From a virus, in the IMG/VR virus record IMGVR_UViG_3300035670_000798, positions 1 through 33,583 of that record: a stretch of DNA of 33,583 bases, one strand, 5' to 3'. Positions within the stretch are counted from its first letter, which is position 1, and every line of letters begins with the position of its first letter. The notes beneath the pieces were generated by a model. The model searched no databases and was not told where the DNA came from. It saw only the letters and a program-made list of their open reading frames with translations. A program made the position numbers and the translations under genes. Below, in pieces: positions 1,224-33,583 of this stretch.

Positions 1224-4200
1224 TTACACCGGTTCGGTACAAATATTTTGTATTGCTGTTATTATGTCTGTACCACTAAATCCTGAAGAAACTAAACCAT
1301 TAGTATCAGTTGCTAATGTGTAAAGTGCATTAGTTCCAGCGGTTGTCATCAATAACACTCTTACATTATTATTATTTAATTGTGGAATTAAATTGTTAAT
1401 GAATGTTATATCTGTTGTATTATAATTATCATCGTTACCACTTGGTACGTTATCGGTAATTAATATGATTAACTTAGAAACATTACTTCTAAATGTTCCC
1501 GCAAATCCATCAGTTCCAATTAAATCAATACCCATATCACTTGGTTCAGGTCCACCAACACCAAATCCTAATGGGAATGACGTTGTGTTTAATTTATTTA
1601 ATTGTGTTGTAAATGATGATTCATTATTCGTACTCATCATTTCAAGTGCGGTAATCCACTGAGATGCACCTATACCAACATTGATATACTTTTGTGATGA
1701 AGGTAATGATGTGTAATCTACTTTTGTACTATAATTTGAAGTAGTACTACTTGTATATTCATCAAATATCACTAATCCCATTCTATAGTTGTTTGCAGAT
1801 TCTGTAACAATTGTGTTGGCAATTGATGATATTGTTGATTTGATGTTATTAATTGCTCCACCCATGCTTCCTGTATAGTCAACCAAGAACACTACATCCA
1901 TACCCGCCTCACATGTTGCATATTCACCCGGAACTTCAGGAACTACTTCAGTAAATGAAGCTTCAAATGAACAATCAGGTGTCGGTGTTAATGTTGGGGT
2001 AACAGTTAATGTTGGAGTGATTGTTAATGTTGGAGTAATTGTAGGGGTAATTGTTGGTGTCGGTGTTACTGGCATTATACAATCACCATCAACTGTACAT
2101 TGTGTTCCTTGAGATACAAATTCGTATCCGTTATAGAATCTAACCACATTACCACCAACTACAAATTGTGGTTGTGTTGTAGAACAAAGTAAAATACTCT
2201 CTTCATTTGAACCCGGTCCAATATAATACATTAATGTATTGAATGGTACCGTGGTTATTGTACTATTATATGGTGTGTAAATTACCTCTAATTCCGTTTC
2301 AAATTCAGTTCCAATCTCATATGTTAAGATATAACAATCACCAATTGTTGGAGTCGGAGTTACCGTCATCGTTGGTGTGATGGTAGGACTAGCCGTCATT
2401 GTTGGTGTGATTGTCGGTGTTATCGTCAATGTAGGTGTGATAGTAGGAGTAACTGTTGGAGTAGGTGTTAATGGCATCAAACAGTCTCCATCGATAGTGC
2501 ATTGTGTTCCTTGAGATATAAACTCATACTCACCATAGAAACGAACCGCACTTCCTCCAATAACGAATTGAGGTTGAGTTGTTGAACAAAGTAATATACT
2601 TTCTTCACTTGAACCCGGTCCACTATTAACCATTAGACTTGTAAATGGTACATTTGTCAATGAACCATTATACGGAGTGTATTGAATTTCTAATTCACCT
2701 TCAAATGGATAACCCACTTCATATGTTAAGATGTAACAATCACCAATTGTAGGTGTTGGGGTCACTGTCATTGTCGGTGTTATAGTGGGTGTAATTGTCA
2801 ACGTAGGTGTTATAGTAGGACTAACAGTTACCGTTGGGGTAATCGTAGGAGTCACTGTAGGTGTTGGTGTCAATGGCATCAAACAATCTACATCACCTGT
2901 ACATTCACCACCTAATGAAACAAATTCATAATCACCATAATAACGAACAGGACTACCTCCCACTACAAATAATGGTTGTGTTGTTGAACACAATAAAATA
3001 CTTTCTTCTGTTGAGCCAGGTCCACCGTTAACCATCAAACTATTGAATAGTACAACGGTCAATATTCCATCGTATGGTGTGTATTGAACCTCCAATTCAC
3101 TCTCAAACGGATAACCCGCTTCATATGTCATTATATAACATGTACCTATTGTTGGTGTTAACGTTACCGTAGGTGACGGAGTCATCGTAGGTGTGATTGT
3201 CAACGTAGGTGTTATAGTAGGTGTAACCGTTAATGTAGGTGTTAAAGTCTCAGTATATGTCGGAGTAACCGTTTGACTATATGTCGGAGTTATAGTTAAC
3301 GTCGGAGTAATAGTAGGAGTTACCGTTTGTGTATAGGTAGGTGTTATCGTCTGACTATACGTTGGTGTAATAGTCGGAGTAATTGTCACCGTCGGTGTTA
3401 TTGTTTGAGTATATGTTGGAGTTAAAGTCGGTGTTGGTGTTGGACTCTTTGTAATTGTCGGTGTAGGGGTATTCGTAGTATAGAACGCCTCTGCATCAAT
3501 CACAAAATCACATGTAGAAACATCAACAAAGAAGTCACAGTCAACACATGTTACGTTATTGTCAAAATCAATTGTCTGATGTAATTGATTTGTTTCACAT
3601 AAAATAACTTGATTATCCAAACTACCGTTGATGATGTTTATTGTGTCATCCTCGATTAAATTTCCATCATAACTAAAGTTAAAGTTGTAATATAAATCGG
3701 TTTCACAATAATTTAAATCAACTGATAATACTTCAAGTAACTCACCTGTTTTTGAAATTAAATAATCACCGTTTGTTGGTATTGGTGTAGATGTTGTACA
3801 ACATGGTTCGATGACATCTGTTTTTCTCACTTGTAATTCCTCAGGGAAACGACAATCAAAATGGAATGTAGTTTCACTTGGTGTTCCGTAGTTTTCAACA
3901 TCGTAATTGGTGTAGATTTTAAATTGAGTGGTAGGTAAAACTGTAATAGTGTGTTCACCATTCGTTGGGTCGTCAACTGTTACCGTATTTTGTTTTATTG
4001 AACCTAAACACTCGATACTTTCTACACGTATCTTTTTGTAATCGAATATGAACGAATATCCATCAGTATTTGCATCTACAAATTGTTGGTAACTAAAATT
4101 AGAACATGATTTCATGTCCACAGCCAATACGTAATCACCAACGTTTAATTCTGCTGGTGAAATTTGAGTAATTTGAGATGAAATAATATAATTTAATATA

Positions 4201-7200
4201 TCGTCTTTTGTTGTACCACTATTAATAGTTAAACCACTATTAATTAACCACATGGCACTATCAGCCAATAAACCATAGTTTAAAGGTTTGGTAAATACCA
4301 CATTTGGTTCTAATGTGAACCCCGTATAATTGTCACAATAAACCGTAGAACTTTGTGATGAAATAGGGTTGTCGATTCCTGATTCGTATCCAATAATTGT
4401 AATTGCCTCAGTATGACTTTTATCACATGGGTCATGAACAATCTTACGATGTAATCCATCAACTTTGAATTTTAATTCATTATTGGATGCATCTATAACA
4501 TTGAAAGTTATTGTATCAGTTTCTGATACACCAGGTATCATAAATTGACACTCACTAATTTTTTCGATTGTGACATCGGCATTTTCATTGTATTGATTAA
4601 TACAATTTGCGTAGATGTTCAATGACCAATCGTGTGTTGTTGGCGCAATCTGTCCGTCAAAATATAAAATTACATCACTTGTTAGAGTTACTCCAGTTTC
4701 AACATCACAATGACCAATACCATCACCGGTAATAGTCACACCGATTTCATCATCAGTTTTCTCGATATCGAATCCACTTTCAAATCTATAATCAAAAAAT
4801 TCTTTTACCGAACAATCAGATATACCATATTTTATTGATGAGAATCTAATCTTTTCTACACCATCAACATCGATAAAGAATTCATGTTGTAGTAATGGGA
4901 TTGATTCAAGATAATATAATTGATTTTCCGCATTTAAATACGGTTCATAATCTTCATATCCTGCAGAATTACGATTTATTGTAACAGTGGCTAATAAATT
5001 AGTAATTGCGGTTCTCCACAATTCCTTAATTTTTGCAATATCGGGAGATAGATAATCTTTGTATTCACATATAAGTGGAAGTTTAGTTGTACTATTACTT
5101 GTTAAACTTGTACAACCTGTAATTGGCATCGGATTGAATAGTTTTGCACTATTCGTCGTGTTTGTTGTTCCACTAACAACAATTGTCATTCCTGATGTTA
5201 AAAATTCATAATCAGGACCACCATATACAACACCATCGATTTCAATAACAGGATAATATGTAACACCTGTTAAATTGATTAACCCTCTGAAGTTCTCTTC
5301 CTCACCCAACATCGTCTCCAAATCCTCTTCGATTGCGGTTTCAAAAGATGGGTATAAGTTCTCAACAAATTGTAATGGTTGACAACCATAAATGTATGGA
5401 TATTTTGACCTACCAAATGAGTTATTTTCAACTAAATTACCTCCTGTCCATAATGTGGTTGCTGGAACTAATTGTTCCACTAATTGTACCCAATATGGTG
5501 ACATTTTAACCACGAACTCATTTACATCAATAAATGTGTAAGGTGTGAATCCATTTTGATTAATATAATCTCTATAGATGTCTTCAAGTACAATGTAATT
5601 CTTCTTGTACTTTATTGTGTGTGAATTCTTAATTACACTATGAATAAACTTATCCAAGAATTCAGCAAAGGTCACACCTGTTTGTGGTGGTAAATTGTTA
5701 TCGGTACCAAAAGAAATTGAAAGGTTTCTACCTTTAGTGTAGATATCAAAATCAATTGCTCTTGATGGTGATAGGTGAATGTGTATATTTTTTCTATTAA
5801 GAATATATGACGAATTTTCATCTGTAGCATGACTCTTTACGTTGTCAATTTCAGATGTTAATCCAAATCCAGTATCTAATCCCGGTAATGTCCTGAAAAC
5901 ATCAAAATAATCTTCACCATAAGTGTATGGTTTATTTTTGGTTTTGATTGTTTTTGTTCTTCCCGTTAATACAGATGTATCTGAATCAATAATAGTCGTT
6001 GAGCGGTGGTCAAGTGTGATATCAAACCAACCCGAACCTTTTTCAAAGAATATATCGTCAGTACCATTAATTGCTCTTCTTGGTAAACCTGTAGTTGGGT
6101 CAACAGGGTATCCTTCTCTATCGAAATTAGTTACACCTGTTAAAGTTGTTTTTGTGTATGTATATCCCGTAATATCAAACTCACCGATAACATAAACCTT
6201 ATCACCTTGGATAACGTCGTAAATGTCTTGTTCAAGATTTTCACTTGAAGGTAATGATGTTACTTTATAGACATACTCATCTATTTTAATTAATGGTTCA
6301 GGTGCACCTAAGAATTTTAAAAAGAATTCAATTGATGCTCTCGTACCTTTAGATTTAAAGATGTACGCTAAATTGATTAATAATCTTCTATAGAATTCGG
6401 ACTCAGCATCTACTAAATTGTATCCCGTAGACACACCTTGGTAGTTTGAATCGATTCTTGTATATAAAACATCATCAACTGATTTCTCATCAAATAATGA
6501 TGTCGTTGATAATCCAAGATTTTCTGATAAGTTTTTTAATAGAATATCGGGTAAGTTATTGATACCATCGTAACTCACATTTCTCATGTAAGCAATGTTG
6601 TCAATATATTTCTTTACCTTATCGAAACTTTGCCCATATAATTGGAAAACACTTTCGGCTCTTCTATCCTCACTATCAAATTCAAATAATTGCGGTGATG
6701 CTAAAAATCTAACCATTAAATTAGATTTGTATGTGTCTATTTCATCACAAACATCACTTAATTTCTCGATATAACTATCGTAATCAAGACCAACAATTTT
6801 AATGTTCCAACCATCACTCGACATCGGCCAAGTATATTCAACATTAACCAATGTTGTTTTACTACCAGCTTCGTTATCACGAGGTACTTGGAATCTTGTT
6901 GTATAAATTGGGTTAGTGTCTCTGTTTAATAGAGATTCTTCTAAATCATCCAATCCTGAGAAAAATTCCTCAACAACACCATCATTTGGTCTAATTAAAA
7001 AATTATCACTATAATTTGATGTTCCACTGAATGGATTCCCATCCACAATTAATCTAATTTGATTAGATGAATTAGGTTCAGTGTATTGAATAATTGGATA
7101 TGACTCGTTATTAACAACAATTACGTACTTGTTAAATGACGAATAGAAATTTCTTAGTTCGTTTTCTGTTGTCGGCTTAATAACACTTGTAGGTTCAACT

Positions 7201-7697
7201 AATGAAATATCAAATGGATTGAATAATTTATTAGTTTCAATGTAAAAAGTGGTTCTTTTTAAATTGTTATCAAATGTAGAATTAAATGCAGAATATGCGT
7301 TTGAACCAATAGGACTATCACCCTCAACATTTAAACCCGCGGGGAATCTATTGATAATTCTTGTGATTGAAACTAAGATTCGACTTCTTAGAGAACCAAA
7401 TAATGATTTATCTGCATTCTTTTTATTACTCCTAAATCTTAATGTCTTTTTCTTTTCGGACGATGAAACTGATGTTGGTGTTTCAGTTTTTTCCTCTTTT
7501 AAACTTTCTAATGTAATAAACTCAGAAAATGGGTTAGTTCTAAAACTTTTACTATCCTTCTCAGGAATAGTTTTATCGATATCGAAGCTCGTATTGGTTA
7601 GTGCAGGACTACCCGTAGTGATTTGTCTTCCAACTAAATTATCACTAAATGTATCTGCCCCACTAGCCGCTTGACTCGGTACTTTTGTTTTAGCCAT
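1224..7697 (-). CDS. 2157-aa tail protein: baseplate-like N-terminus, Thr-Pro stalk with three modules, C-terminal vWA domain
   Basis: The N-terminal ~1400 residues are non-repetitive. Around residues 430-475 a Y-R-R-L-L-I-N-L-A... stretch followed by [15 protein letters not shown] resembles the conserved part of P2 gpI-type tail proteins, consistent with baseplate attachment (resemblance judged by eye). From 1410 the chain alternates Thr-Pro stalks (1410-1516, 1610-1650, 1744-1784, 1878-1907) with three 93-residue modules (1517-1609, 1651-1743, 1785-1877). From ~1925 to the end it is a vWA domain: a MIDAS-like D-Y-T-G-S (D1940, T1942, S1944), G-G-P-E-P-S-D-M-G, and L-I-I-L-I-T-D-N-V near the second metal-site region. 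The start overlaps the upstream stop by one base, typical of this operon. A tail-tip or fibre adhesin is the best inference; the ligand is unknown. Confidence 0.85.
1977..2066 (-). repeat. Thr-Pro stalk, 30 residues, before the vWA domain
   Basis: This is the shortest complete stalk in the window (residues 1878-1907 of the 2157-aa protein). It links module copy 3 to the vWA domain. Confidence 0.9.
2067..2345 (-). repeat. 93-residue four-cysteine module, copy 3
   Basis: This 279-bp copy starts [10 protein letters not shown] and ends V-D-G-D-C-I-M-P. It keeps all four cysteines and the E-E-S-I-L-L-C-S-T core. Confidence 0.9.
2346..2468 (-). repeat. Thr-Pro stalk, 41 residues
   Basis: Residues 1744-1784. 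It has the same length as the stalk between copies 1 and 2, so the pair module + stalk (402 bp) is a regular repeat unit here. Confidence 0.9.
2469..2747 (-). repeat. 93-residue four-cysteine module, copy 2
   Basis: This 279-bp copy starts [12 protein letters not shown] and ends I-D-G-D-C-L-M-P. It is closest by eye to copies 1 and 3. Confidence 0.9.
2748..2870 (-). repeat. Thr-Pro stalk, 41 residues
   Basis: Residues 1610-1650 of the 2157-aa protein. Thr-Pro units alternate with V, I, L and M. Confidence 0.9.
2871..3149 (-). repeat. 93-residue four-cysteine module, copy 1
   Basis: This 279-bp copy is the most divergent at its end ([12 protein letters not shown]), but all four cysteines and the [12 protein letters not shown] core remain. 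Confidence 0.9.
3150..3470 (-). repeat. Longest Thr-Pro stalk, 107 residues, with Tyr-containing units
   Basis: Residues 1410-1516. Unlike the other stalks it contains repeated T-Y-[ST]-[QE]-T units between the Thr-Pro steps. The frame is uninterrupted. Confidence 0.9.
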
Positions 7698-21896: not shown

Positions 21897-23270
21897 TTAA
21901 CGGTTTAATAATTCTTGTCTTCTCTTGAACGCATCAGCCGCTCTGTTTGCGTTGTTTTTGACTTTCTCTTCTTGGTGTCCAAGTAATGTAGTTTGTGTTT
22001 CGGTATCAATTCTTAGGAATTTGTTGTCGAATGAACAATTGTTCCAAATGATACCATCTTGACCAATACGAGATTTAAGAAGTGTCATTGTTGCAAGGTT
22101 GTGTTCTTTTTGTTCCAAAGTCTTACCAACAGATAAAACAACGTGACCGATTTGTGCCTTTTTAATAGAACCACCCATTTGGTCAGTTGTTACAACTTCA
22201 GATGCAATTGATTCACGATTACCTTGAGTTGCGGTCCAAATTGCAATATCAAATTCAGTTGTCATAGCTTCAAGACTTCTCATTACAGAACCCTCACCTT
22301 TCCATTCTTCACCAAAATTTGACCTCTCAGGACTAATACAATCAACGTAGTCAATTACCAACATATCTAACTTATTACCGTCAGAAATATACTTTCTTAT
22401 ACGATTTTTGATTTCACTGATAGTGACAGAATCACTTGGTAATTTAACAATGTCCAATTTACCTTTTTTACTCTGTCTGATTTCCTCAACGATTTGTTTT
22501 ACCTCATCCTTATTTTCTGATTGTAAATCAGGTTCAATGCCCGTCCAAATCGTATAGTGTTTTTTCCTAATGTTATTAGGATTGTCCTCAAAGAAGATTT
22601 GTAAAACATTGAAGTCATAGTTATAAGCAGTGTTAGAGAACAATGTTAACAATGTTGTTTTACCTGTTCCTGTCGGTGCTAAAACTACTCCTAATTCACC
22701 TCTACCTAATCCACCTTTCAGTGCCCCATCAAGACCGTTAATTCCGGTTGGAATTGCCATTCTATTGTCTTTTTCGAGAGCTTCATCAATCTTATCAAAT
22801 ACGTCAGTAGACTCTTCAGGTGGAATACCAACCTGCATTGCCTTCTGAATAATTCGTTCGATGATGTTGTATTCTTGGAAACTTCCTTTTTCAATGATAT
22901 CATTGATTTTTTTGATTTCCTTCTTCAAATTCTGTTGTTTACAGAAATTCAACGCTTCATCTTTAGCCCAAGATGGGTCTTGAGTATTATTTCTAATACC
23001 CTCCAAAGTGTCAATGTGAATTCTAGCATTTTCCTTTGTTCCAAAATTTGAAATGAACTGTTGTGTTAATTCATCATAATTCGGGGTTTTATTATATTTC
23101 CCGAAATGTTCTTTAACGAGGTTCGTAATGAATTTAAAGGATGCGTTATCAAAGTACTGGCTCTCGATTACATCAATTATCGTTTCTGCATATTTTTTGT
23201 CTTCAATAATTGACTTCAACAAAGTTTGTTGAAATGATACGCCGAGAGTTCCAAAGTTCTTTTCTGTCAT
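21897..23270 (-). CDS. gp41: DnaB/gp41-type replicative helicase, 457 aa
   Basis: This is a RecA-fold hexameric helicase that unwinds DNA at the phage fork. Residues 1-~150 form the helical N-terminal domain. After a linker comes the core: [13 protein letters not shown] (177-189), Walker A A-P-T-G-T-G-K-T (198-205, K204), F-F-E-D-N with the likely catalytic E228, Walker [11 protein letters not shown] (301-310), and a Q-G-N-R-E region. The C-terminus is basic ([10 protein letters not shown]). Length is near T4 gp41 (475 aa). It is placed with UvsX, the 5' nuclease and RNR, as expected. No primase gene is visible in the window. Confidence 0.92.
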
Positions 23271-23285: not shown

Positions 23286-23732
23286 TTATAGTTGATAATT
23301 AAGGTACGTTGTTTCCAAATTCTTAGAAGATAGTAAAATAGTCAAGTCAGACAAGTATCTCTTCAAATGTGGACGAATATCAACCGTATATCTCACCTTT
23401 GGGTGGAAGAAATATGCGGGGAATATTCTTTGAATAAATACATCGTCACCTATCTTAATTTCCAACAAAAAGTGTTCTTTTTGATTGTCTTCGTTAGGTT
23501 CTGCAGAGTCCAAACCGTAAAAATATTCTCGATTATCGTATAGATAATCGGAAGTTTTCATTTTCAAATCATAGAAAATTTCGTCACAAATATTTTTCAC
23601 ATAATCGTGAATTTCCATCGAACGACGAGATTTTGGGTTGTGGTTTCTCACATTAAAGAATCGTTGAACTACAATGTTACCTTCAAGTGTCAAAAGTAAT
23701 TCAAATTTAGTTAAATCTTGATTGTTATTCAT
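23286..23732 (-). CDS. Unknown 148-aa protein of two related halves, in the replication operon
   Basis: I do not recognise the family. Residues 10-52 align without gaps to 88-130 (offset 78): F10/F88, L12/L90, Q23-R24/Q101-R102, F26/F104, P33-K34/P111-K112, R36/R114, I41/I119 and K46/K124 are identical, and many other positions are similar. Each half looks like two or three beta strands and a helix, centred on Q-R-x-F...P-K-x-R. The start overlaps the end of the 5' nuclease gene by 8 bp, and the helicase follows after 15 bp, so translational coupling is likely. A replisome accessory role is inferred from the neighbourhood only. Confidence 0.85.
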   Translation of the reverse strand: MNNNQDLTKFELLLTLEGNIVVQRFFNVRNHNPKSRRSMEIHDYVKNICDEIFYDLKMKTSDYLYDNREYFYGLDSAEPNEDNQKEHFLLEIKIGDDVFIQRIFPAYFFHPKVRYTVDIRPHLKRYLSDLTILLSSKNLETTYLNYQL

Positions 23733-24747
23733 GTGTTTTTATTTTAATTAAGGTTTTATTTTTTTCTTTTCTTGTTAAACGTAAAAAGGGGTTTAGGAAT
23801 CTGACAAATGCGTCGTCCGATTTTGGTAATAATCGGGTTATACCGTCTTCACTCATCATCTTCATTAGGTTTTTATATGACCTACCTTCGGGGTCCATAG
23901 ATTCATTTATCAACTCGTTAATTGACTCTTTGGCTTCGTCGGTAAGAAATGGAACATCTAAACTAACTATCCTTTCATTTACAATAAAAAACTCCTCACC
24001 AAGTACACCATGTTTGGTGACACCTGTTAGTAGATTTGCCGCCAATCTATTTTCTCTGTCATCTTCGAAAAGTTGATTGAATCGGTCAATAATAAATTGT
24101 AAAGTGATTGGTTCCGTTCTCAACTCAGGTACAAAACCAAGGAGTCTTCTGACTCCAAGGTTCCTAATACCCGCAATGTTATCTGATGGGTCACCACATA
24201 ACATTTTCACCAATTTAATATTCTCAATACGAATTTCTTCGTGGTCGTATTTGAACATATCATTTTGATGATACATTTTTGAGTGAGATGGGTTGAACAA
24301 TCTTGTATTTTCAGATACAAGTTGTGTTAAATCACCGTCGGATGAAAATACGATAATATTCTCATTTGGTGAATTTTGTGTGTAGTATGCAATAGCATCG
24401 TCGGTTTCACAATAATCGTACTCACCTTGTCTAACAAACACCTCTTCAAGGTATTGTTTTATTCGGTTTCTTTGTACTGAATAAGAATGAACTTGCTCTT
24501 CAGTACGAGTACGAGATTTACGATTTTGTTTGTAATGAACGTAGTATTGTTTTCGACAACTTGAACCCTCTTTTCCGTCCCAAAAGACTACGACTTTGTC
24601 CAATCTATGTACATCAATAACTTTTCTTAAAGTATCGATAAAGTGATATAATCCACCAATGTGTTTTTCATTGTGAAATATATCTTTTCTTCCAAAAAAG
24701 CCGATGGTAAGTAAGTTATCACCATCAACCAATAATACATTAGACAT
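23725..24747 (-). CDS. rnh: 5'-3' exonuclease / T4 RNase H-like flap nuclease, 340 aa
   Basis: This is a FEN/PIN-fold nuclease that removes RNA primers and flaps at the lagging strand. The acidic residues of the family are visible: L-L-V-D-G-D-N (D8, D10), F-W-D-G-K-E-G, C-E-T-D-D-A-I-A, F-S-S-D-G-D-L-T-Q-L, and C-G-D-P-S-D-N-I-A-G-I leading into the helix-three-turn-helix region (N-L-G-V-R-R-L-L-G-F). Size is close to T4 Rnh (305 aa). It lies between uvsX and the 148-aa gene. A polymerase-I-type 5' nuclease domain is related, but no polymerase part is attached here. Confidence 0.9.
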   Translation of the reverse strand: MSNVLLVDGDNLLTIGFFGRKDIFHNEKHIGGLYHFIDTLRKVIDVHRLDKVVVFWDGKEGSSCRKQYYVHYKQNRKSRTRTEEQVHSYSVQRNRIKQYLEEVFVRQGEYDYCETDDAIAYYTQNSPNENIIVFSSDGDLTQLVSENTRLFNPSHSKMYHQNDMFKYDHEEIRIENIKLVKMLCGDPSDNIAGIRNLGVRRLLGFVPELRTEPITLQFIIDRFNQLFEDDRENRLAANLLTGVTKHGVLGEEFFIVNERIVSLDVPFLTDEAKESINELINESMDPEGRSYKNLMKMMSEDGITRLLPKSDDAFVRFLNPFLRLTRKEKNKTLIKIKTHE

Positions 24748-24776: not shown

Positions 24777-25805
24777 TCAATCTTCGTCTTCGTCTGCAGT
24801 AGGTTCAAATTTGATGTCACCAGTATTTGAAATAGTTTCACCAAATAATCTACTAATATAGTCAAGGTGTTCCTTGATGTATGATTCTTTAGAAGCTTTC
24901 TCTTCAGCAGCTTCTCTTGCTTGCATAAATCCGTGTGGAGTCACCATAATTTTACCATCACCGAATTGGATACCATTTACGTGGTTCTTCATCACAGTGA
25001 TTTTACTTCTTGTGGCAATGGTAATCGTTCTCTTGTTTTTAGTGATTGGAATTTTGGTTGTACCAGCGTTCTTCTCATTTCCAAAACGGAATACCAATGT
25101 TGAGTTTAACCAAACTGACTCACCACCTTTTGCCTTAATTTTTGGTTGACCAAATGGATTGTCAGGTAATTCTACCCAAGGTTGGTTTACAATAACCAAT
25201 GTGTTTGTGTGAGGTTTGTCTGCTCTTCTTGAACCCGAAATACGTTGGTTAATTCCCATACCAATTTTATCAGAAAGAACAGATGCATTGTGTTGTTTAC
25301 CTCCTTTTCCTTCCCATGTCATTTTACATGGTACCGAACCAACAGAATCCCATAAGAATAACAAATCGTAAGGGATATCACCTTTTTCCTGAGCGTCTAA
25401 TAGTTCATTAATGAAATCAGTAATTTGTTCAATGTACTCAAAATCATTTTTGAAAATAAAGTCACCTGTATATGTGATTTCACCTGTTGCAGGGTCTACT
25501 TCTTCAACAACAGGAATACCCATGATACGTGCGTGTTCAAAATCGAATTTTTGTTCTGTAATAATGAAAACAGGGACAATATTCTTTTTAACAGCATCTG
25601 CAGCTGCTCCTAAAAGAGCAGTTGTCTTACCTGTATCAGAGTGTCCAAGGAACATGTTAATGTGTCCAAGTGCAGGACCCGGTAAACCTGTGGCATCCAA
25701 GAAAGCATCACCTAAATCCAAGAAACGGTCAGGTTTATAGGTAGTCTTACTAGAGTACTTCGTAGTAATACTTGAAATTGAAAAATCTTTTTTCTTTAAA
25801 GCCAT
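24777..25805 (-). CDS. uvsX: UvsX/RecA-type recombinase, 342 aa
   Basis: This ATPase forms filaments on ssDNA and performs strand exchange in recombination-dependent replication and repair. Walker A is G-H-S-D-T-G-K-T (residues 54-61). A Walker B-like L-L-F-L-W-D-S-V-G follows, then a UvsX-type loop region (G-K-G-G-K-Q-H-N-A) and N-T-L-V-I-V-N-Q-P-W. It is slightly shorter than T4 UvsX (391 aa) and ends in an acidic tail (T-A-D-E-D-E-D). It is the first gene after the gp32-like gene and its terminator, with an A-rich leader and no Shine-Dalgarno sequence. The gp32/UvsX pair is expected to work together on ssDNA. Confidence 0.93.
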   Translation of the reverse strand: MALKKKDFSISSITTKYSSKTTYKPDRFLDLGDAFLDATGLPGPALGHINMFLGHSDTGKTTALLGAAADAVKKNIVPVFIITEQKFDFEHARIMGIPVVEEVDPATGEITYTGDFIFKNDFEYIEQITDFINELLDAQEKGDIPYDLLFLWDSVGSVPCKMTWEGKGGKQHNASVLSDKIGMGINQRISGSRRADKPHTNTLVIVNQPWVELPDNPFGQPKIKAKGGESVWLNSTLVFRFGNEKNAGTTKIPITKNKRTITIATRSKITVMKNHVNGIQFGDGKIMVTPHGFMQAREAAEEKASKESYIKEHLDYISRLFGETISNTGDIKFEPTADEDED

Positions 25806-25879: not shown

Positions 25880-26764
25880 TTAGAACGGTAAATCGTCGTC
25901 CGCTTCCTCTTCAGCTTGTGGGTCAACAACTACTTGTTGTACCGGTTGTGATTGTGGAACTGAAACACTTGGAGCTGGAGATGATGGTGGTGCCATCAAT
26001 GTATCCTCTTCTTGTGAATTAGATGTCCATTTTTTGTTTTCAGAATCCCATTTTGGAACTTCACCTCTTGCAACCATTTCCAAATACTCCTCAGGTTTTT
26101 TAGAGTAAACGTCAGCCCAAGTCAATTCATCGTTAATCCATGAATCTGATGTTGTTGGGTCAGAGTGTAGTGGTGATGGGTCAGCCGGGAAGATGGATGT
26201 GATACTTGTGTATTCTCTACCGTTACCCGCTTTAGTAAGGCCTAAAGTAATGATAAGGTCACGACCTGAATTTACATCGAAAATGTCGATTTTATTCATC
26301 ACCAACGCCATGATTTTGTCCATGACACCTTCATTCTTACTGTTATGTTTAAAACGCCAGAATTTTACACCGTCTTGTTCGTTTTCACGGTCAATTACCT
26401 TTACGATGTAAAATTTACGAGACGTGTATTGTCTTGCTAAAATTTTATCAGATTCCAACCCTGTCATATACAGAGCTTCACGTACTTCGTTAAGTGGTGA
26501 ACGTAGACCTTCTTGTTTCGGGTCGTACAATTTCATCCAATTCCCATCTACTTGTACTTCGTGGAAGTATTTTTCCACGAATGGAGATGTTCCGTCCGTC
26601 ATAGGAACGATACGAATACGTTTTTGACCATTTCTAACACCTTTCGGTAAAACAGTCGTAAAGTACTTTTTTAATCGGTCTTCTTGTGAAACCTTACTTA
26701 CGTTGCCGCCTGCGGCTTGTTTGTTTTTCTCGTACTGAGCCAGTACTGCATCAAATGTTGACAT
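25880..26764 (-). CDS. gp32: gp32-like single-stranded DNA-binding protein, 294 aa
   Basis: It coats ssDNA during replication and recombination. The N-terminus (S-T-F-D-A-V-L-A-Q-Y-E-K) and core (R-I-R-I-V-P, F-W-R-F-K-H-N, G-R-D-L-I-I-T-L) match gp32-like proteins of T4-type phages in pattern. The D-P-S-P-L motif region and a long flexible Pro/Ser/Gln tail follow. The last six residues are D-D-D-L-P-F, almost the D-D-D-I-P-F tip of bacterial SSB. The protein contains no cysteine at all, so the zinc site of T4 gp32 is absent. The gene is bracketed by two strong terminators, making it its own transcription unit, as suits a highly expressed SSB. Confidence 0.88.
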   Translation of the reverse strand: MSTFDAVLAQYEKNKQAAGGNVSKVSQEDRLKKYFTTVLPKGVRNGQKRIRIVPMTDGTSPFVEKYFHEVQVDGNWMKLYDPKQEGLRSPLNEVREALYMTGLESDKILARQYTSRKFYIVKVIDRENEQDGVKFWRFKHNSKNEGVMDKIMALVMNKIDIFDVNSGRDLIITLGLTKAGNGREYTSITSIFPADPSPLHSDPTTSDSWINDELTWADVYSKKPEEYLEMVARGEVPKWDSENKKWTSNSQEEDTLMAPPSSPAPSVSVPQSQPVQQVVVDPQAEEEADDDLPF

Positions 26765-26858: not shown

Positions 26859-27230
26859 TTATTCAAGGGTCAGCAAATATAACAATTTACTTAACGATTG
26901 AATCATTTCGTCTTTGATATTCATCAAATCAGTATCTTTCGGGTCCAATGTATCAGACATTTCTTCTAACGCCTTAATACATGTGTGTACCATCTCTTTA
27001 GGTTTGATTTCATTTAAATTTATAAGATTTATATCCTTATCTTCTTCAGATAATACAAATCTTTCATACTTACCCATTGCGGATTCAACAAAAGAATCAA
27101 TCAAACCATCCAAAACCTCATAAGTCTCACCAAATGCCATGTGTCTAGCATAACCTTTGGTTTGCCAATGAAAGATTTTCAATTGTGATTGAAGACCTAA
27201 AAAGAAATTTACATTAGAAGCTAAATTCAT
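26859..27230 (-). CDS. DUF5856-like protein with ferritin/Dps-like helical pattern, 123 aa
   Basis: This small all-helical protein looks like the phage family DUF5856. The N-terminal half (L-K-I-F-H-W-Q-T-K-G, then H-M-A-F-G-E-T-Y, then L-D-G-L-I-D-S-F-V-E) follows the opening of Dps proteins. With a three-residue deletion, H21, H30, D45 and E49 fall on four of the five Dps ferroxidase ligands, while the fifth position is G34 (with E35 beside it). The C-terminal half is helical and acidic. The start overlaps the upstream gene by 17 bp, so translation is probably coupled, and a terminator follows. Metal binding or DNA protection is inference; a purely structural role is equally possible. Confidence 0.85.
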   Translation of the reverse strand: MNLASNVNFFLGLQSQLKIFHWQTKGYARHMAFGETYEVLDGLIDSFVESAMGKYERFVLSEEDKDINLINLNEIKPKEMVHTCIKALEEMSDTLDPKDTDLMNIKDEMIQSLSKLLYLLTLE

Positions 27231-27840
27231 CTTCTTGAGTTTCAGGGTTAAATGTGTTTCTTATCATTTCTTTAGAATAGTCATTCACATCTTGTTTTGT
27301 TAAAACATATTCGTGTTTACCTGATGCTGCCATCTCACCTTGTTTCTGTGTGAAGAAATCTTGTGGTTTCTGATTGAACGGGTATGAATCTAAAGAACGC
27401 ATCTCTAATTTTTCTTGTGGTGTTGGTTCTTTTACCGCCTCAACTTTTGCACCTAAGTCATCAATCTTAGCAATAACCATATCCATCTGAGATAATTTTT
27501 GTTCCAAATCACCTAATTTACCGAATAGGTCGTCCATTTTTGTAACAACACCATCGTGTTCAGCTTTGTTGTCTTCAATATCTTTCTTGATTGATTTAGT
27601 CATATTAACTAAATCTGTAATATCGATTTCTTCTGTTGACTCATCTGCAGCAGGTGCTTCAGGTGCCGCCTCAGGTGCCGGAGCTTCTTCAGGTGCAGGT
27701 GTCTCTTCAGGACCTGCCGGTAATGGAGGTAATTCTCCACCCACAGGTGCTTCCTGTTCGTTCATTAATTTCTTAGCGTACTTATTGATTGCATTAAATC
27801 TAGCAACCTCTTCCATTAATTTGTTTTCTAAGTTACTCAT
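27214..27840 (-). CDS. Acidic Pro/Ala-rich protein with coiled coil, 208 aa, unknown function
   Basis: I do not recognise a family. Residues 1-28 look helical. About 30-70 is a flexible P-A-P-E-E-A-P-A-P-E repeat-like linker. Residues ~75-135 form a heptad-like coiled coil (V-T-K-M-D-D-L-F-G-K-L-G-D-L-E-Q-K-L). The C-terminus (S-Y-P-F-N-Q-K-P-Q-D-F-F) is more conserved-looking and ends E-D-E-F-S-F. The gene lies four bases after the 68-aa gene and overlaps the DUF5856 gene by 17 bp. The layout suggests an oligomeric scaffold or adaptor. This is inference. Confidence 0.85.
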   Translation of the reverse strand: MSNLENKLMEEVARFNAINKYAKKLMNEQEAPVGGELPPLPAGPEETPAPEEAPAPEAAPEAPAADESTEEIDITDLVNMTKSIKKDIEDNKAEHDGVVTKMDDLFGKLGDLEQKLSQMDMVIAKIDDLGAKVEAVKEPTPQEKLEMRSLDSYPFNQKPQDFFTQKQGEMAASGKHEYVLTKQDVNDYSKEMIRNTFNPETQEDEFSF

Positions 27841-28116: not shown

Positions 28117-31100
28117 TTATTTCAATTGGAAGTAAACCACATCACCATCATATAACCCTAACTCAGACATTAATGAGGGTGACATTGCCATTCCGTAATT
28201 ACTAACACTCGGTCCAATAGAAACGGGTCCTTGTACTGTTATTGGTCCGACATTAACATCTAATTGATAATTAGCGGTTAGTGATGTCTTCTTACCATTT
28301 TTAGGGTTTAAAAATTCGGTTGTTGATGTTGTTATCTTATTTCTAACCTCACCATTCGTCAATTGGAACTTAGTACTGTAGAATTTTGAAGTACTTGAAC
28401 TAATCTGTGACCATTTAATACTATTAGCAAGATTCATTGTTACACTTTCGTCGATTGGGTAGTTTTGTCCACCCATCTTAACTACCAACGCTCTAAACCA
28501 TTCACCTGTGTAATTACTGTTGGTCACTTTTTGGATGTCCTTTTCATTATTGTAACCATTGTACGGTACTCCAAATTCACTTACACCCACTTTTTGAACC
28601 ACAGTTTCACCGTTAGGTCTTGGTGTTCCTCTATCAATCACATATGATGCATTTTGATAAACCACCGCTTCTTGAACAACCGGTTTATTGTCTGCATTTT
28701 GTTTAAACAAAGCAATTGCTTTGTTAGACAATTTATCGAACAACACCCTGTAACTCGAAATAAATGAATCCTTAGGGTCAGGTAATGAACTATATGGAAT
28801 TCGACTTCCTGTGAATTTTGTTGAGATAGTATTATTCTGTATTGAATGAGATACCTCTGTAATCCAATATGAACCTCTAAACATAGGTATGTTTTTTACA
28901 TAGAAGAACATCGTTGGTTGAATCATTACGTTACCCATACAACTCACCTCACAACTATATGAAGCTTGTTTATAATAGTCAAATAAACTAACGTCAACGT
29001 TATATGCCCCCGCACCTGAAGCGGTTCTACCTAAATTTTCCAATATCTCAAATGACTCTGATGTATTTTTCAATGTGGATTGGTCAAGTGTTAAACCTTT
29101 GAAAATACCTTGATTTTGGTCACCGAAACTTACCTCGAACGCAACAACTCTATTTGATTTACTTAAATCATTTTTACTGAAACTTTCTAATGATGTTACC
29201 ACTAATGGGTTGTTATTTACACTACCAATATAGAAACTGTCGTCAGAGAATTTATATTCCTTACTATTTGATAAATCCAATCTTTTAGATGAATTACCAA
29301 CCAATTGGATAATAATCTTTGGTGAAGATTCTTGGTAATCAACTTCTAAGAATGTACCAAATAGATTTTTGGCAACCGTTTTTGATGGGGCAACTTTACC
29401 CTTATTATTATTTAGGTTAGTACCATAGAAATTAACGTATGCCGGTAGAGCTCTCATATCAAGACCACTTCCTTGAATTAACATCGAAATTGCGCTATAT
29501 AAACTAACCTTAGCATTTTTAGGGTTTAATAGTGGTAATATCCTATCAATATTTAAAAAATACTTATCTCCAATATCTCTGTTTGCTTTGTCTAAGAATA
29601 AAAATTCCTCCAATAACAATCTCTGACCAATTGAATTCCCTGCAGTCCATTTATCGTTAAAAGATTTGAAGGTATTATATAATTCTAATTTAGTGTCACT
29701 AATATTGTGTCCACCATATTTCATTATTTGTGTACCAACTTTTTCTTTTTCAATATTTTTATCACCACTAATTAATGGTAACAAATATGCCATAAATGTT
29801 TTCAATCTATTATCCGCACCACCCGCAACAATATTATCGGTAGGTCTTTGGAATATAGATGTTCGAAGATATTCTCTAAACGCGGTTTTTGTGTTTGTAC
29901 CTCCTGATTCAACATAACCCGCGTAAATCTGAATCATTGGTCGGTATCTAATAATATTCGTTTCAGTTAATCTAATGTTATTAACAATGAAAAAATTCTC
30001 GTAATGTCCGTCAATATCTTCACCAATATATAATTTAATTAAATCCTGATTAGCCGTTGTTAAATCTAACGAACTATATTCAGATTCACCATATCTTGAT
30101 AAACCATCGAAATTAGTTATTCCATAAAACGTATACGGTTCAATTTCTTTTGGGTTAGCCAAAGTGAATTTCATTAAACTATCCACATTCACGAATCTTT
30201 TAGTGATTGATTCCGCTTTTTCTTTTTGTATTGTCTTGAAGCTATTAATCATACCTTCAATGTTTGTAGATGTTACTTTAGATTTTTCAATTCTAACAAG
30301 GTCACGTAAAATAGTTTGGAACTCATAATATGGAATGTCTTGGAATTGTTTTACCGTAGTTTCATCATTGGCAATTTCTGTTGAGAATTCGATGAACATT
30401 TCTTCAAACGATTCTAAAATTGTAGGACTAAACGTAGCAATTAAATCTATTACTTTTCTATAGTTAGTATCTACTGAGAAGACACTATTTGTGTTTCTCA
30501 TGTATTGGTCAGGTGATGCAAAAGTCTTACCCGAAAATGATGTTGTTAGGGTTTCATCAGACCACCACATTCTATAGTTATTTTGTGAAACATCACCGTA
30601 GTCTACCACATTTTGTGAAATAACATTTCCACCATCTGATGGTAGTAATGTGTAAAACGCATCGTTCGGGTCATAAGTTGAGTTGTCGACAAATACGGTA
30701 TAGTAATTTTTATCGTTTACAGTTCTTTTTCTATGTTTGATTTTACCTGACGTAGTATTTCCACTATATTCAGTGTTACCTGAAAATACATTATAATGGA
30801 TATAGTTATTCACCACTTGATGGAAAACAGAGTGATAAAAAGGTGAAATACCGATATCCGTTTGATTTGAATATGCAACGGTACTTCCATCAATTGTGAA
30901 TCCGGTGAAAGCACTTCCTGTTAATTCACCATCAAATAAAGTACTACCTGTTATTGGTTGGGTAACGTTGCTTGAATTGATAAAAGAATCTAAAATATCT
31001 TCCCCGTCAACTATCTTCTTTTTATAACGATGATAAATCGAACCCCATTTAACCATTAAATGGTAAGGGATAAAGTGTGTTGATGATATTTCTTTAAATA

Positions 31101-33583
31101 AAGATGACACCAACACTGATTTACCATCAAATGTGATTGTATCATCTAAATCAACATAAGGTAATGAGTTCAGTAAAAGATATGCCGAACCAACATACTT
31201 ACCTCTTTTGTTTAATTTATTGAAATCGGTATATAATTGTTTGTGGAAATATGGTGTGTTTAATATTGAAACACTATTACCACTCAACGACATTGGTTGG
31301 TTAAATAAATTTGTTTTATATCCGTCTTTAACCCATGATTCAGGATTAATTGGTGAGCAAATGAAACCATTCTCAGTATCCACCTTTAGGATTCCGTTGA
31401 ATTTTAAATTATCCTTACTAAATGTTGTCTTGTTTAAATAACCAAGATATGTACTTGAGTTGTATGGGTAAATCTTTGTTCTATAATCTTCAGGAACGTA
31501 ATTTAATAATTCCTGATTAATCCCCTCTTCATTAGTTAATCCACGTTTCTCTCTTTTAGTACCATATTTCTCTATTGAGAATGAGAAATCAATAATTTCC
31601 TCTATATATGGTACCGTAGGAGTATGGTCCAAGAAATAATTAAACCTTTCAAACGGTGATAACAACACCAATTGTCCACCGAATTGTTTACCATCAGGTG
31701 AAAGTGAAACAAAGTCATCAATTGTTTTTAATTTCTTAACTAATGCAATTAAGTCAATGTCATCACTTATAGATTCTTTAATGTTTTCATATTCTTCGTT
31801 TGCCAAATAGTATAACATTTTGTTGCTAAACGAATCAAATAAGGTTGTATACAACGCTCGTTCATAAATCTCGTAAACAAATGATGATGTTGATTTATCA
31901 ATATATGGTACCGATTCGTTAATAACATCAATACCACTTATATCGTCAAGTTTCTTTGTGTCTGAATCGGATTCAAAAATATAATGTACGTCTGATACTG
32001 TTGGTTCATCTTTGACCACAGTATCTACTTTGTTTGTTACAATTTGTAAGTAATTCTCAACAAAATCGACCTCGGGCCATATAGTTTTATCGTCTGATTT
32101 TAATTTCTCAATTAGTTCAGGTTCACCGGGATAGGCAATAACATTTTGTTTTCCTGACGATAATGGTTTTTTAATTTCAGGCCAAGGATAAATTGCTGGA
32201 GTGTTTTTACTTTGTTCATCCGTTAACCCTTTTAATAATTTTGCACGTGAAGATGCCGATTCAAACGCCTTATTATGGGTGTCTTTCATCAACCTAATGT
32301 AAACTTCAGCGTTTGCTAATAAAACTGCAAATATGTTTCTAATTGTTGGTTCAAATCCAAAACCATTATTCTTATCCTTAATGATTTCATTCATTTGTTT
32401 TTCAACAACATCTTCTAATTTCTTACGTTGTTCCTCAAATGATTTTTTGATTTGGAAAATGTCGGCAAAAAGTAGGTCGATTCCAACCATAACCTTTTTA
32501 GTTGAGGTTTCAACATTATAGTATGACCCAATATTTTTAACTTGTCCGATGTTTATTTTCTTAAAGTCAGCACCGGTTTTGTTCAATTGATTATTTGAAA
32601 ATAATAATGACTTTTTAAGTTGTTCAGTGTAAACCGTAACAAGTTTTTCAAGGGTACCATTTACATCTTTTCCTGTTACCTTATCTAATTTGTCCTTATC
32701 TTTTTGTGATAGGTAATACCAATTTTGTTGGTTTATTGTTTGATATTCGGTATTAGAAAGATATTGTTTTGACCAAGCTTTGATTGCATTTTCAAAATCA
32801 CTAATATTTTTCTCCAATTCTTTTATACCTTGGAAGATACTCATATCAACGACATTATTGAAAATTTGTTTTTCTAATATCTTGTCTAATGATTCCGCAA
32901 TATAACCTAACTCTTTTAATGTTTTAACAGGAAAATCTTGAGGAACTAATCCCTTTTGTTTGTATTGTGAATAAATTGATTTTAATATCGTATACCCTCT
33001 TGAACCTTTCGTTACCTTTTTCTCGTATTGACCAGTGTTTTCATTGAACTTTTTATCCTCAGCATTTTCGGTCAAGAACATATATGGTGCATTAATTATT
33101 GATGACAATGTGATGTCATTCATAAATGCATATGTTGAACCAACGAATTCTGTGGTAATTTCAAAGTTACCATTACTTTCGTTGAATCGTGATGTAAATT
33201 TTGTTAAGTGTAAACGATATCTAATTGCCTTACCGTAGTAACCTTTAACAGTTAAATAAAATATTGGCCACGGTAAATGGAAAAATGCACGATATGGTGA
33301 ATTTTCAGCAGCTTCGAATAACGTTTTACCCCTAACATCAATAAAAGTGATATTAACTCTTGGTGTAAAATTAGCACCCTTAACTGTAATATTAATAGAG
33401 TCAATACCGAAAGTTTGTCCTGAAGGGTCACGAAATGAGTCTGCGGTAAATGTTGAATCGTTTCCTGTTTTATAATTTGATTCTAATCCTTCAATTGGTT
33501 TTGGTACAAATGAATCAGTCCATGATGCGTCAAAATTACCGTCACCTCCCTGATTTTTTAAAAAATTTAAATTTCCTTTAGCA
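28117..33583 (-). CDS. Giant baseplate/tail-hub-like protein, N-terminus outside window (at least 1822 codons)
   Basis: The frame is open from the stop at 28117 through the ATG at 33123 and on to the last ~20 codons I traced before the right edge, so that ATG is internal. The visible N-terminal part (A-F-F-H-L-P-W-P-I-F-Y-L-T-V-K-G-Y-Y-G, then F-E-I-T-T-E-F-V-G) looks like a phage tail-hub-type beta domain. A long helical, lysine-rich middle and a large Thr/Gly-containing beta region follow. Near the C-terminus I-Q-P-T-M-F-F-Y-V-K-N-I-P-M-F and S-Y-W-I-T-E-V-S-H-S-I resemble the last domain of gpD/LysM-type hub proteins. The final residues (M-A-M-S-P-S-L-M-S-E-L-G-L-Y-D-G-D-V-V) suggest a small barrel. 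A central hub or spike-carrier role is inferred. Confidence 0.75.
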   Translation of the reverse strand, partial: AKGNLNFLKNQGGDGNFDASWTDSFVPKPIEGLESNYKTGNDSTFTADSFRDPSGQTFGIDSINITVKGANFTPRVNITFIDVRGKTLFEAAENSPYRAFFHLPWPIFYLTVKGYYGKAIRYRLHLTKFTSRFNESNGNFEITTEFVGSTYAFMNDITLSSIINAPYMFLTENAEDKKFNENTGQYEKKVTKGSRGYTILKSIYSQYKQKGLVPQDFPVKTLKELGYIAESLDKILEKQIFNNVVDMSIFQGIKELEKNISDFENAIKAWSKQYLSNTEYQTINQQNWYYLSQKDKDKLDKVTGKDVNGTLEKLVTVYTEQLKKSLLFSNNQLNKTGADFKKINIGQVKNIGSYYNVETSTKKVMVGIDLLFADIFQIKKSFEEQRKKLEDVVEKQMNEIIKDKNNGFGFEPTIRNIFAVLLANAEVYIRLMKDTHNKAFESASSRAKLLKGLTDEQSKNTPAIYPWPEIKKPLSSGKQNVIAYPGEPELIEKLKSDDKTIWPEVDFVENYLQIVTNKVDTVVKDEPTVSDVHYIFESDSDTKKLDDISGIDVINESVPYIDKSTSSFVYEIYERALYTTLFDSFSNKMLYYLANEEYENIKESISDDIDLIALVKKLKTIDDFVSLSPDGKQFGGQLVLLSPFERFNYFLDHTPTVPYIEEIIDFSFSIEKYGTKREKRGLTNEEGINQELLNYVPEDYRTKIYPYNSSTYLGYLNKTTFSKDNLKFNGILKVDTENGFICSPINPESWVKDGYKTNLFNQPMSLSGNSVSILNTPYFHKQLYTDFNKLNKRGKYVGSAYLLLNSLPYVDLDDTITFDGKSVLVSSLFKEISSTHFIPYHLMVKWGSIYHRYKKKIVDGEDILDSFINSSNVTQPITGSTLFDGELTGSAFTGFTIDGSTVAYSNQTDIGISPFYHSVFHQVVNNYIHYNVFSGNTEYSGNTTSGKIKHRKRTVNDKNYYTVFVDNSTYDPNDAFYTLLPSDGGNVISQNVVDYGDVSQNNYRMWWSDETLTTSFSGKTFASPDQYMRNTNSVFSVDTNYRKVIDLIATFSPTILESFEEMFIEFSTEIANDETTVKQFQDIPYYEFQTILRDLVRIEKSKVTSTNIEGMINSFKTIQKEKAESITKRFVNVDSLMKFTLANPKEIEPYTFYGITNFDGLSRYGESEYSSLDLTTANQDLIKLYIGEDIDGHYENFFIVNNIRLTETNIIRYRPMIQIYAGYVESGGTNTKTAFREYLRTSIFQRPTDNIVAGGADNRLKTFMAYLLPLISGDKNIEKEKVGTQIMKYGGHNISDTKLELYNTFKSFNDKWTAGNSIGQRLLLEEFLFLDKANRDIGDKYFLNIDRILPLLNPKNAKVSLYSAISMLIQGSGLDMRALPAYVNFYGTNLNNNKGKVAPSKTVAKNLFGTFLEVDYQESSPKIIIQLVGNSSKRLDLSNSKEYKFSDDSFYIGSVNNNPLVVTSLESFSKNDLSKSNRVVAFEVSFGDQNQGIFKGLTLDQSTLKNTSESFEILENLGRTASGAGAYNVDVSLFDYYKQASYSCEVSCMGNVMIQPTMFFYVKNIPMFRGSYWITEVSHSIQNNTISTKFTGSRIPYSSLPDPKDSFISSYRVLFDKLSNKAIALFKQNADNKPVVQEAVVYQNASYVIDRGTPRPNGETVVQKVGVSEFGVPYNGYNNEKDIQKVTNSNYTGEWFRALVVKMGGQNYPIDESVTMNLANSIKWSQISSSTSKFYSTKFQLTNGEVRNKITTSTTEFLNPKNGKKTSLTANYQLDVNVGPITVQGPVSIGPSVSNYGMAMSPSLMSELGLYDGDVVYFQLK

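Follow-up and report, generated by a model that had tools for sequence, protein, structure and literature searches.

Phage gp32 and bacterial SSB solve one task differently, and each calls its partners in its own way. In T4 gp32, residues 248-270 serve to recruit Dda, and a role in DNA binding has been proposed for the far acidic end (PMC11551737). T4 also encodes gp59, a helicase loader that works with gp32. The C-terminal tip of E. coli SSB serves more than 17 partners, and RecO accommodates its last two residues (Pro-Phe) in a hydrophobic pocket (PMC7913777). The SSBs of Flavobacterium psychrophilum and Psychroflexus torquis end in DLPF (PMC3991886).

Here we analysed a single stretch of viral DNA of 33,583 nucleotides (referred to as the window in the rest of the text), a 33.6-kb virus record that carries T4-type baseplate genes, nrdA and nrdB, and genes for a DnaB-type helicase, an exonuclease, UvsX and gp32. 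An initial annotation had described the gp32-like protein as free of cysteine, with a zinc site lost or replaced and with an SSB-like tip, and had proposed structure prediction of the core and a survey of homologues in Bacteroidota phages as checks. The features of this gene are as follows.

25880..26764, minus strand: gp32-family ssDNA-binding protein of 294 aa, complete ORF from ATG to stop codon (included)
25883..25900, minus strand: codons of the terminal D-D-D-L-P-F (residues 289-294), SSB-Ct-like tip
25883..26014, minus strand: acidic tail (residues 251-294), predicted to be disordered (pLDDT <50 in the AlphaFold model)
26489..26563, minus strand: remnant of the zinc loop (residues 68-92), located by alignment to T4 gp32

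A Pfam profile search matched residues 45-198 of the product to gp32 (PF08804; 46.1 bits where the cut-off is 26.8, E = 7.6e-12), and PHROGs assigns the protein as 'single strand DNA binding protein'. The AlphaFold model, built from 25 clade sequences, has a core in blocks of pLDDT 77-92 and values below 50 at residues 1-23 and 251-294. This model aligned with gp32 of RB69 (2a1k, Z = 13.1) and T4 (1gpc, Z = 12.8) over 192-196 residues; after the gp32 structures, the best unrelated chain scored Z = 4.5. The bacterial SSB OB-fold (PF00436) was matched neither by the protein nor by the whole window in a profile search, and a search of PDB sequences with the protein returned chance matches only. 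The product of 25880-26764 is thus a genuine member of the gp32 family, as the initial annotation had it. It shares with T4 and RB69 gp32 the core fold, the family score and a three-part layout with an acidic C-terminal tail. Unlike them, it has three of the four zinc ligands replaced; no counterpart of the Dda-binding segment 248-270 of T4 gp32 was recognised in it, and it ends in an SSB-like tip where T4 gp32 ends in DDLLNDL.

Alignment to T4 gp32 places the zinc ligands H64, C77, C87 and C90 opposite H68, D81, S89 and N92, such that three of the four are gone and the His-Cys-Cys-Cys set of the zinc-binding gp32 subgroup is absent. Not one of the 294 residues is a cysteine, and the claim that the site was lost or replaced proved correct, with D81, S89 and N92 standing in for the three Cys ligands. 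The rest of the loop (G-x-W-x-K-L-Y-D-P...S-P-L-N-E) is retained. Among relatives of about 42-47% identity, the set is complete in L170, L186 and others, and half-lost in L169, L187, L197 and L203; it is complete in the more distant relatives L171, L213 and L214. The 159 LPF-ended relatives described below comprise 124 proteins without the set, 26 with it and 9 with half of it. In L169, L187, L197, L203 and their relatives, the His and the last Cys have been replaced together (Y...C...C-P-x-Y/F), and these half-lost sites suggest that the ligand set decayed in steps, with ligands going in pairs.

The zinc cysteines are missing from other members of the family as well. At the ligand positions, gp32 of cyanophage P-SSM2 and of Stenotrophomonas phage Yut3 reads H-S-D-S and that of Mel-JY01 reads H-S-D-V, and the gp32-like protein of Flavobacterium phage immuto has no Cys. 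Since P-SSM2 and Yut3 gp32 also do without it, the H-C-C-C set does not define the gp32 family as a whole. These two proteins resemble the window protein in this respect but lost zinc separately and have no LPF (they end in FAKLAES and GLLED). In a gp32 tree, a fully supported branch separates the tip-bearing clade, whose zinc sites range from complete through partial to lost, from P-SSM2 and Yut3, and the well-supported branches require the zinc-less label to have changed at least twice. Zinc thus seems to be dispensable in gp32 and to have been lost more than once. Because its loss recurs across gp32s, it carries no information about the tip. The view that zinc loss and the tip are a single event failed on both sides: relatives with a zinc site bear the tip, and zinc loss occurs without the tip in P-SSM2, Yut3 and Mel-JY01, as does the absence of Cys in immuto. 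We rule out that zinc loss caused the tip or goes together with it; in the window protein, the loss of the zinc site is an ordinary event unconnected with the tip.

The tail consists of a hypervariable Ser/Thr/Pro linker, a D-P-Q motif (residues 281-283) and the tip, and the protein terminates in EEEADDDLPF. DDDLPF has the form of a bacterial SSB-Ct, i.e. an acidic run followed by hydrophobic-Pro-Phe at a free C-terminus, and like an SSB-Ct it closes a linker predicted to be disordered; unlike an SSB-Ct, it sits on a fold family other than PF00436. To follow its conservation, we gathered 160 unique complete homologues from IMG/VR and genome contigs. Leu-Pro-Phe ends 159 of them; in the remaining one (L205), an interruption near residue 200 breaks the ORF. 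The 127 distinct 30-nt DNAs coding for the tip use every Leu, Pro and Phe codon, with zero amino-acid replacements at these residues. Beside this invariant LPF, linker positions -15 to -30 reach an entropy of about 2.6-3.5 bits among the 159 relatives. The residue preceding LPF is D, E or N, the one further in is D, E, G or S, and the last 10 residues lack K and R in 144 of 159 relatives. When 379 ORFs of at least 80 aa from the examined phage regions were screened, the only ones ending in PF were seven gp32 copies. That the end stays invariant while the disordered tether drifts argues for selection of a recognised peptide. The tip is no chance ending but is under strong selective constraint, and a docking role is therefore likely.

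The positions inward of the tip are variable, except for the D-P-Q-like motif of the zinc-less subclade. This motif (25916-25924, minus strand; positions -14 to -12 from the end) was found in 121 of 124 zinc-less relatives versus 0 of 35 relatives with zinc cysteines.

The presence of an SSB-like tip, as initially annotated, is thus borne out, and in the homologue survey its conservation held throughout the clade (159/160) but not in immuto, whose gp32 ends in KFDDLFN. A tip general to gp32 of Bacteroidota phages is thereby ruled out. Rhodothermus phage RM378 was also considered as a carrier and rejected: none of its ORFs of at least 80 aa ends in LPF, and one of 597 aa ends in SFPF and has no acidic run. 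The SSB of Croceibacter phage P2559S ends in DDDLPF.

The gp32 gene belongs to a conserved block, the rest of which includes the following genes.

24777..25805, minus strand: UvsX-like recombinase, next gene of the block (PHROG 97; closest isolate, immuto)
23725..24747, minus strand: 5'-3' exonuclease (PF02739)
23286..23732, minus strand: u148, no family match, two beta-beta-alpha repeats in the AlphaFold model
21897..23270, minus strand: DnaB-like replicative helicase of the gp41 type (PF03796, PHROG 19)

The gene order ssb-uvsX-exo-dnaB-nrdB-nrdA is identical to that of immuto, which is also the only isolate matched by UvsX. Among named isolates, NrdA is closest to that of Tenacibaculum and Cellulophaga phages (50-55%), with at most 36% outside Bacteroidota. 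Shine-Dalgarno-like motifs precede 0 of 17 genes in the window, 2 of 147 in the relative G001 and 1 of 26 in immuto, compared to 5 of 9 in T4; such near-absence is as expected for Bacteroidota, in which Shine-Dalgarno sequences are naturally missing (PMC6847099). NrdA, UvsX, gene order and Shine-Dalgarno scarcity together indicate that the host is probably a member of the Bacteroidota. A marine Far-T4 phage genome was earlier assigned to Bacteroidetes, in a report that does not mention gp32 (PMC7198788). The phage collection that we searched holds no isolate of the tip-bearing clade: the window gp32 matched other gp32s there at 24-32% identity only, and proteins of the L170 and L214 types matched nothing. 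Three tip-bearing phage contigs, L169 (QCKH01000004.1), L170 and L171, are filed under non-Bacteroidota genomes (Prochlorococcus, Spirochaetes and Izimaplasma); they are possibly misbinned viral contigs, and for this reason no host was read from them.

In the literature searched, which leaves out most subscription journals, we found no description of an SSB-like tip on a gp32, and its novelty is accordingly provisional. Judging by titles and abstracts, publications containing DDDLPF do not concern phage gp32, and the combination of gp32, SSB, phage and 'C-terminal tip' led to a RecOR study.

We consider it probable that the window gp32 recruits partners through an SSB-Ct-like peptide that docks in SSB-tip pockets. 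The phage's own gp32-type protein would coat ssDNA with its gp32 OB-fold core, for which zinc is no longer needed, and would recruit partners with an acidic-L-P-F end, its carboxyl group free, on a disordered tether some 40 residues long. This peptide would dock into the SSB-tip pockets of DNA-processing proteins, thereby bringing them to phage ssDNA, and recruitment would be condensed into the tip instead of residing in an internal segment such as 248-270 of T4 gp32. We infer that proteins bind to the tip and that they do so with the pocket of an SSB-tip reader, which could be a host protein of the RecO, PriA, RecQ or DnaG type or, alternatively, a phage-encoded one such as u148. By description, the tail can be likened to that of T7 gp2.5, an SSB of a different type, whose acidic tail binds replication partners (PMC5686142).

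One possibility, to which we give somewhat less than even weight, is that the tip mimics the host SSB tip and diverts host SSB partners from host SSB. The tip is the DLPF ending of flavobacterial SSBs, and hence nearer to that of the probable host than to the DIPF of E. coli. No bacterial SSB (PF00436) was detected in ten large contigs of the clade, such that gp32 is the only SSB detected there. However, immuto shares the gene block and is known to infect Flavobacterium, yet it is tipless, indicating that the tip is not required to infect such hosts, and the Leu is invariant even in lineages without an assigned host. Taken overall, the host-mimicry idea of the initial annotation is a plausible proposal; the link between zinc loss and tip is refuted. 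A gp32 with a bacterial call sign, fixed across a large group of uncultured phages, would offer a clean test of whether phages use the host SSB network. Phage SSBs trigger the defence systems Hna, Hachiman, AbpAB and Retron-Eco8 (PMC13381803), so that a host-like tip could also bear on recognition.

The tip may instead dock mainly on a phage-encoded partner, a tentative reading in which the leading candidate is u148 acting as a gp59-like loader. A gene for u148 lies between those for the exonuclease and the helicase in every LPF-clade neighbourhood examined (the window, G001, G002, G006, G007, G008, G009 and L169-L171), zinc-positive lineages included. Immuto shares with the window the gene order and a Cys-free gp32, but neither it nor Mel-JY01 has a gene at the u148 position in the exonuclease-helicase interval, and their gp32s end in FDDLFN or FDDLFNKD. 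In addition, T4 has gp59, whereas no gp59 was detected in the ten large clade contigs, which are possibly incomplete. In the same search, the controls T4, P-SSM2 and Yut3 were positive and S-PM2 was missed, and a diverged gp59 could thus exist in the clade. G001 encodes PolB, primase, clamp loader and SbcCD homologues, as revealed by family scans of its larger non-structural ORFs; with T4-type replisome parts of its own, host partners may not be needed and phage partners are possible. Against a role for u148, its co-occurrence with the tip may rest on a single evolutionary event, a single split of the tree. The u148 model (AlphaFold, pLDDT 86) exhibits an internal duplication into two beta-beta-alpha repeats, has no match in the PDB (best Z = 4.6) and confidently matches solely uncharacterised phage proteins, which neither supports nor excludes the role. 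We thus regard u148 as a candidate tip reader or helicase loader, a hypothesis founded on gene position. More doubtful is the fuller scenario of a clade without the gp59 route whose gp32 would have been rewired with a convergent SSB tip, read by host SSB partners or by a helicase-loading u148.

It seems unlikely that the tail serves only to mimic DNA with its acidic residues, folding back onto the DNA trough and tuning ssDNA affinity. The acidic tails of T4 gp32 (residues 273-301) and of other phage SSBs modulate DNA binding (PMC11551737; PMC5686142), but such a mimic needs charge and no exact sequence, yet the acidic positions -4 to -6 vary (D/E/N/S/G) and L-P-F never does. We give very little credence to LPF as a ClpXP degradation signal setting the lifetime of the phage SSB, as the terminal LPF of SsbA suffices for ClpXP degradation in some Streptococcus mutans strains but goes unrecognised in E. 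coli, other streptococci and other S. mutans strains (PMC5143411), and a phage is not expected to retain a degron, over divergence of this extent, on a DNA protein that it needs.

Three further ORFs of the window, all on the minus strand, deserve mention. The one at 27214-27840, conserved upstream of gp32, codes for a 208-aa protein ending in EDEFSF, an acidic aromatic end that is not retained in G001, where the protein ends in DNAAQY. An ORF of 2157 aa (1224-7697) has a marginal Pfam match (VWA). Another of 1668 aa (28117-33123) has no Pfam match and is 44-54% conserved in close relatives.
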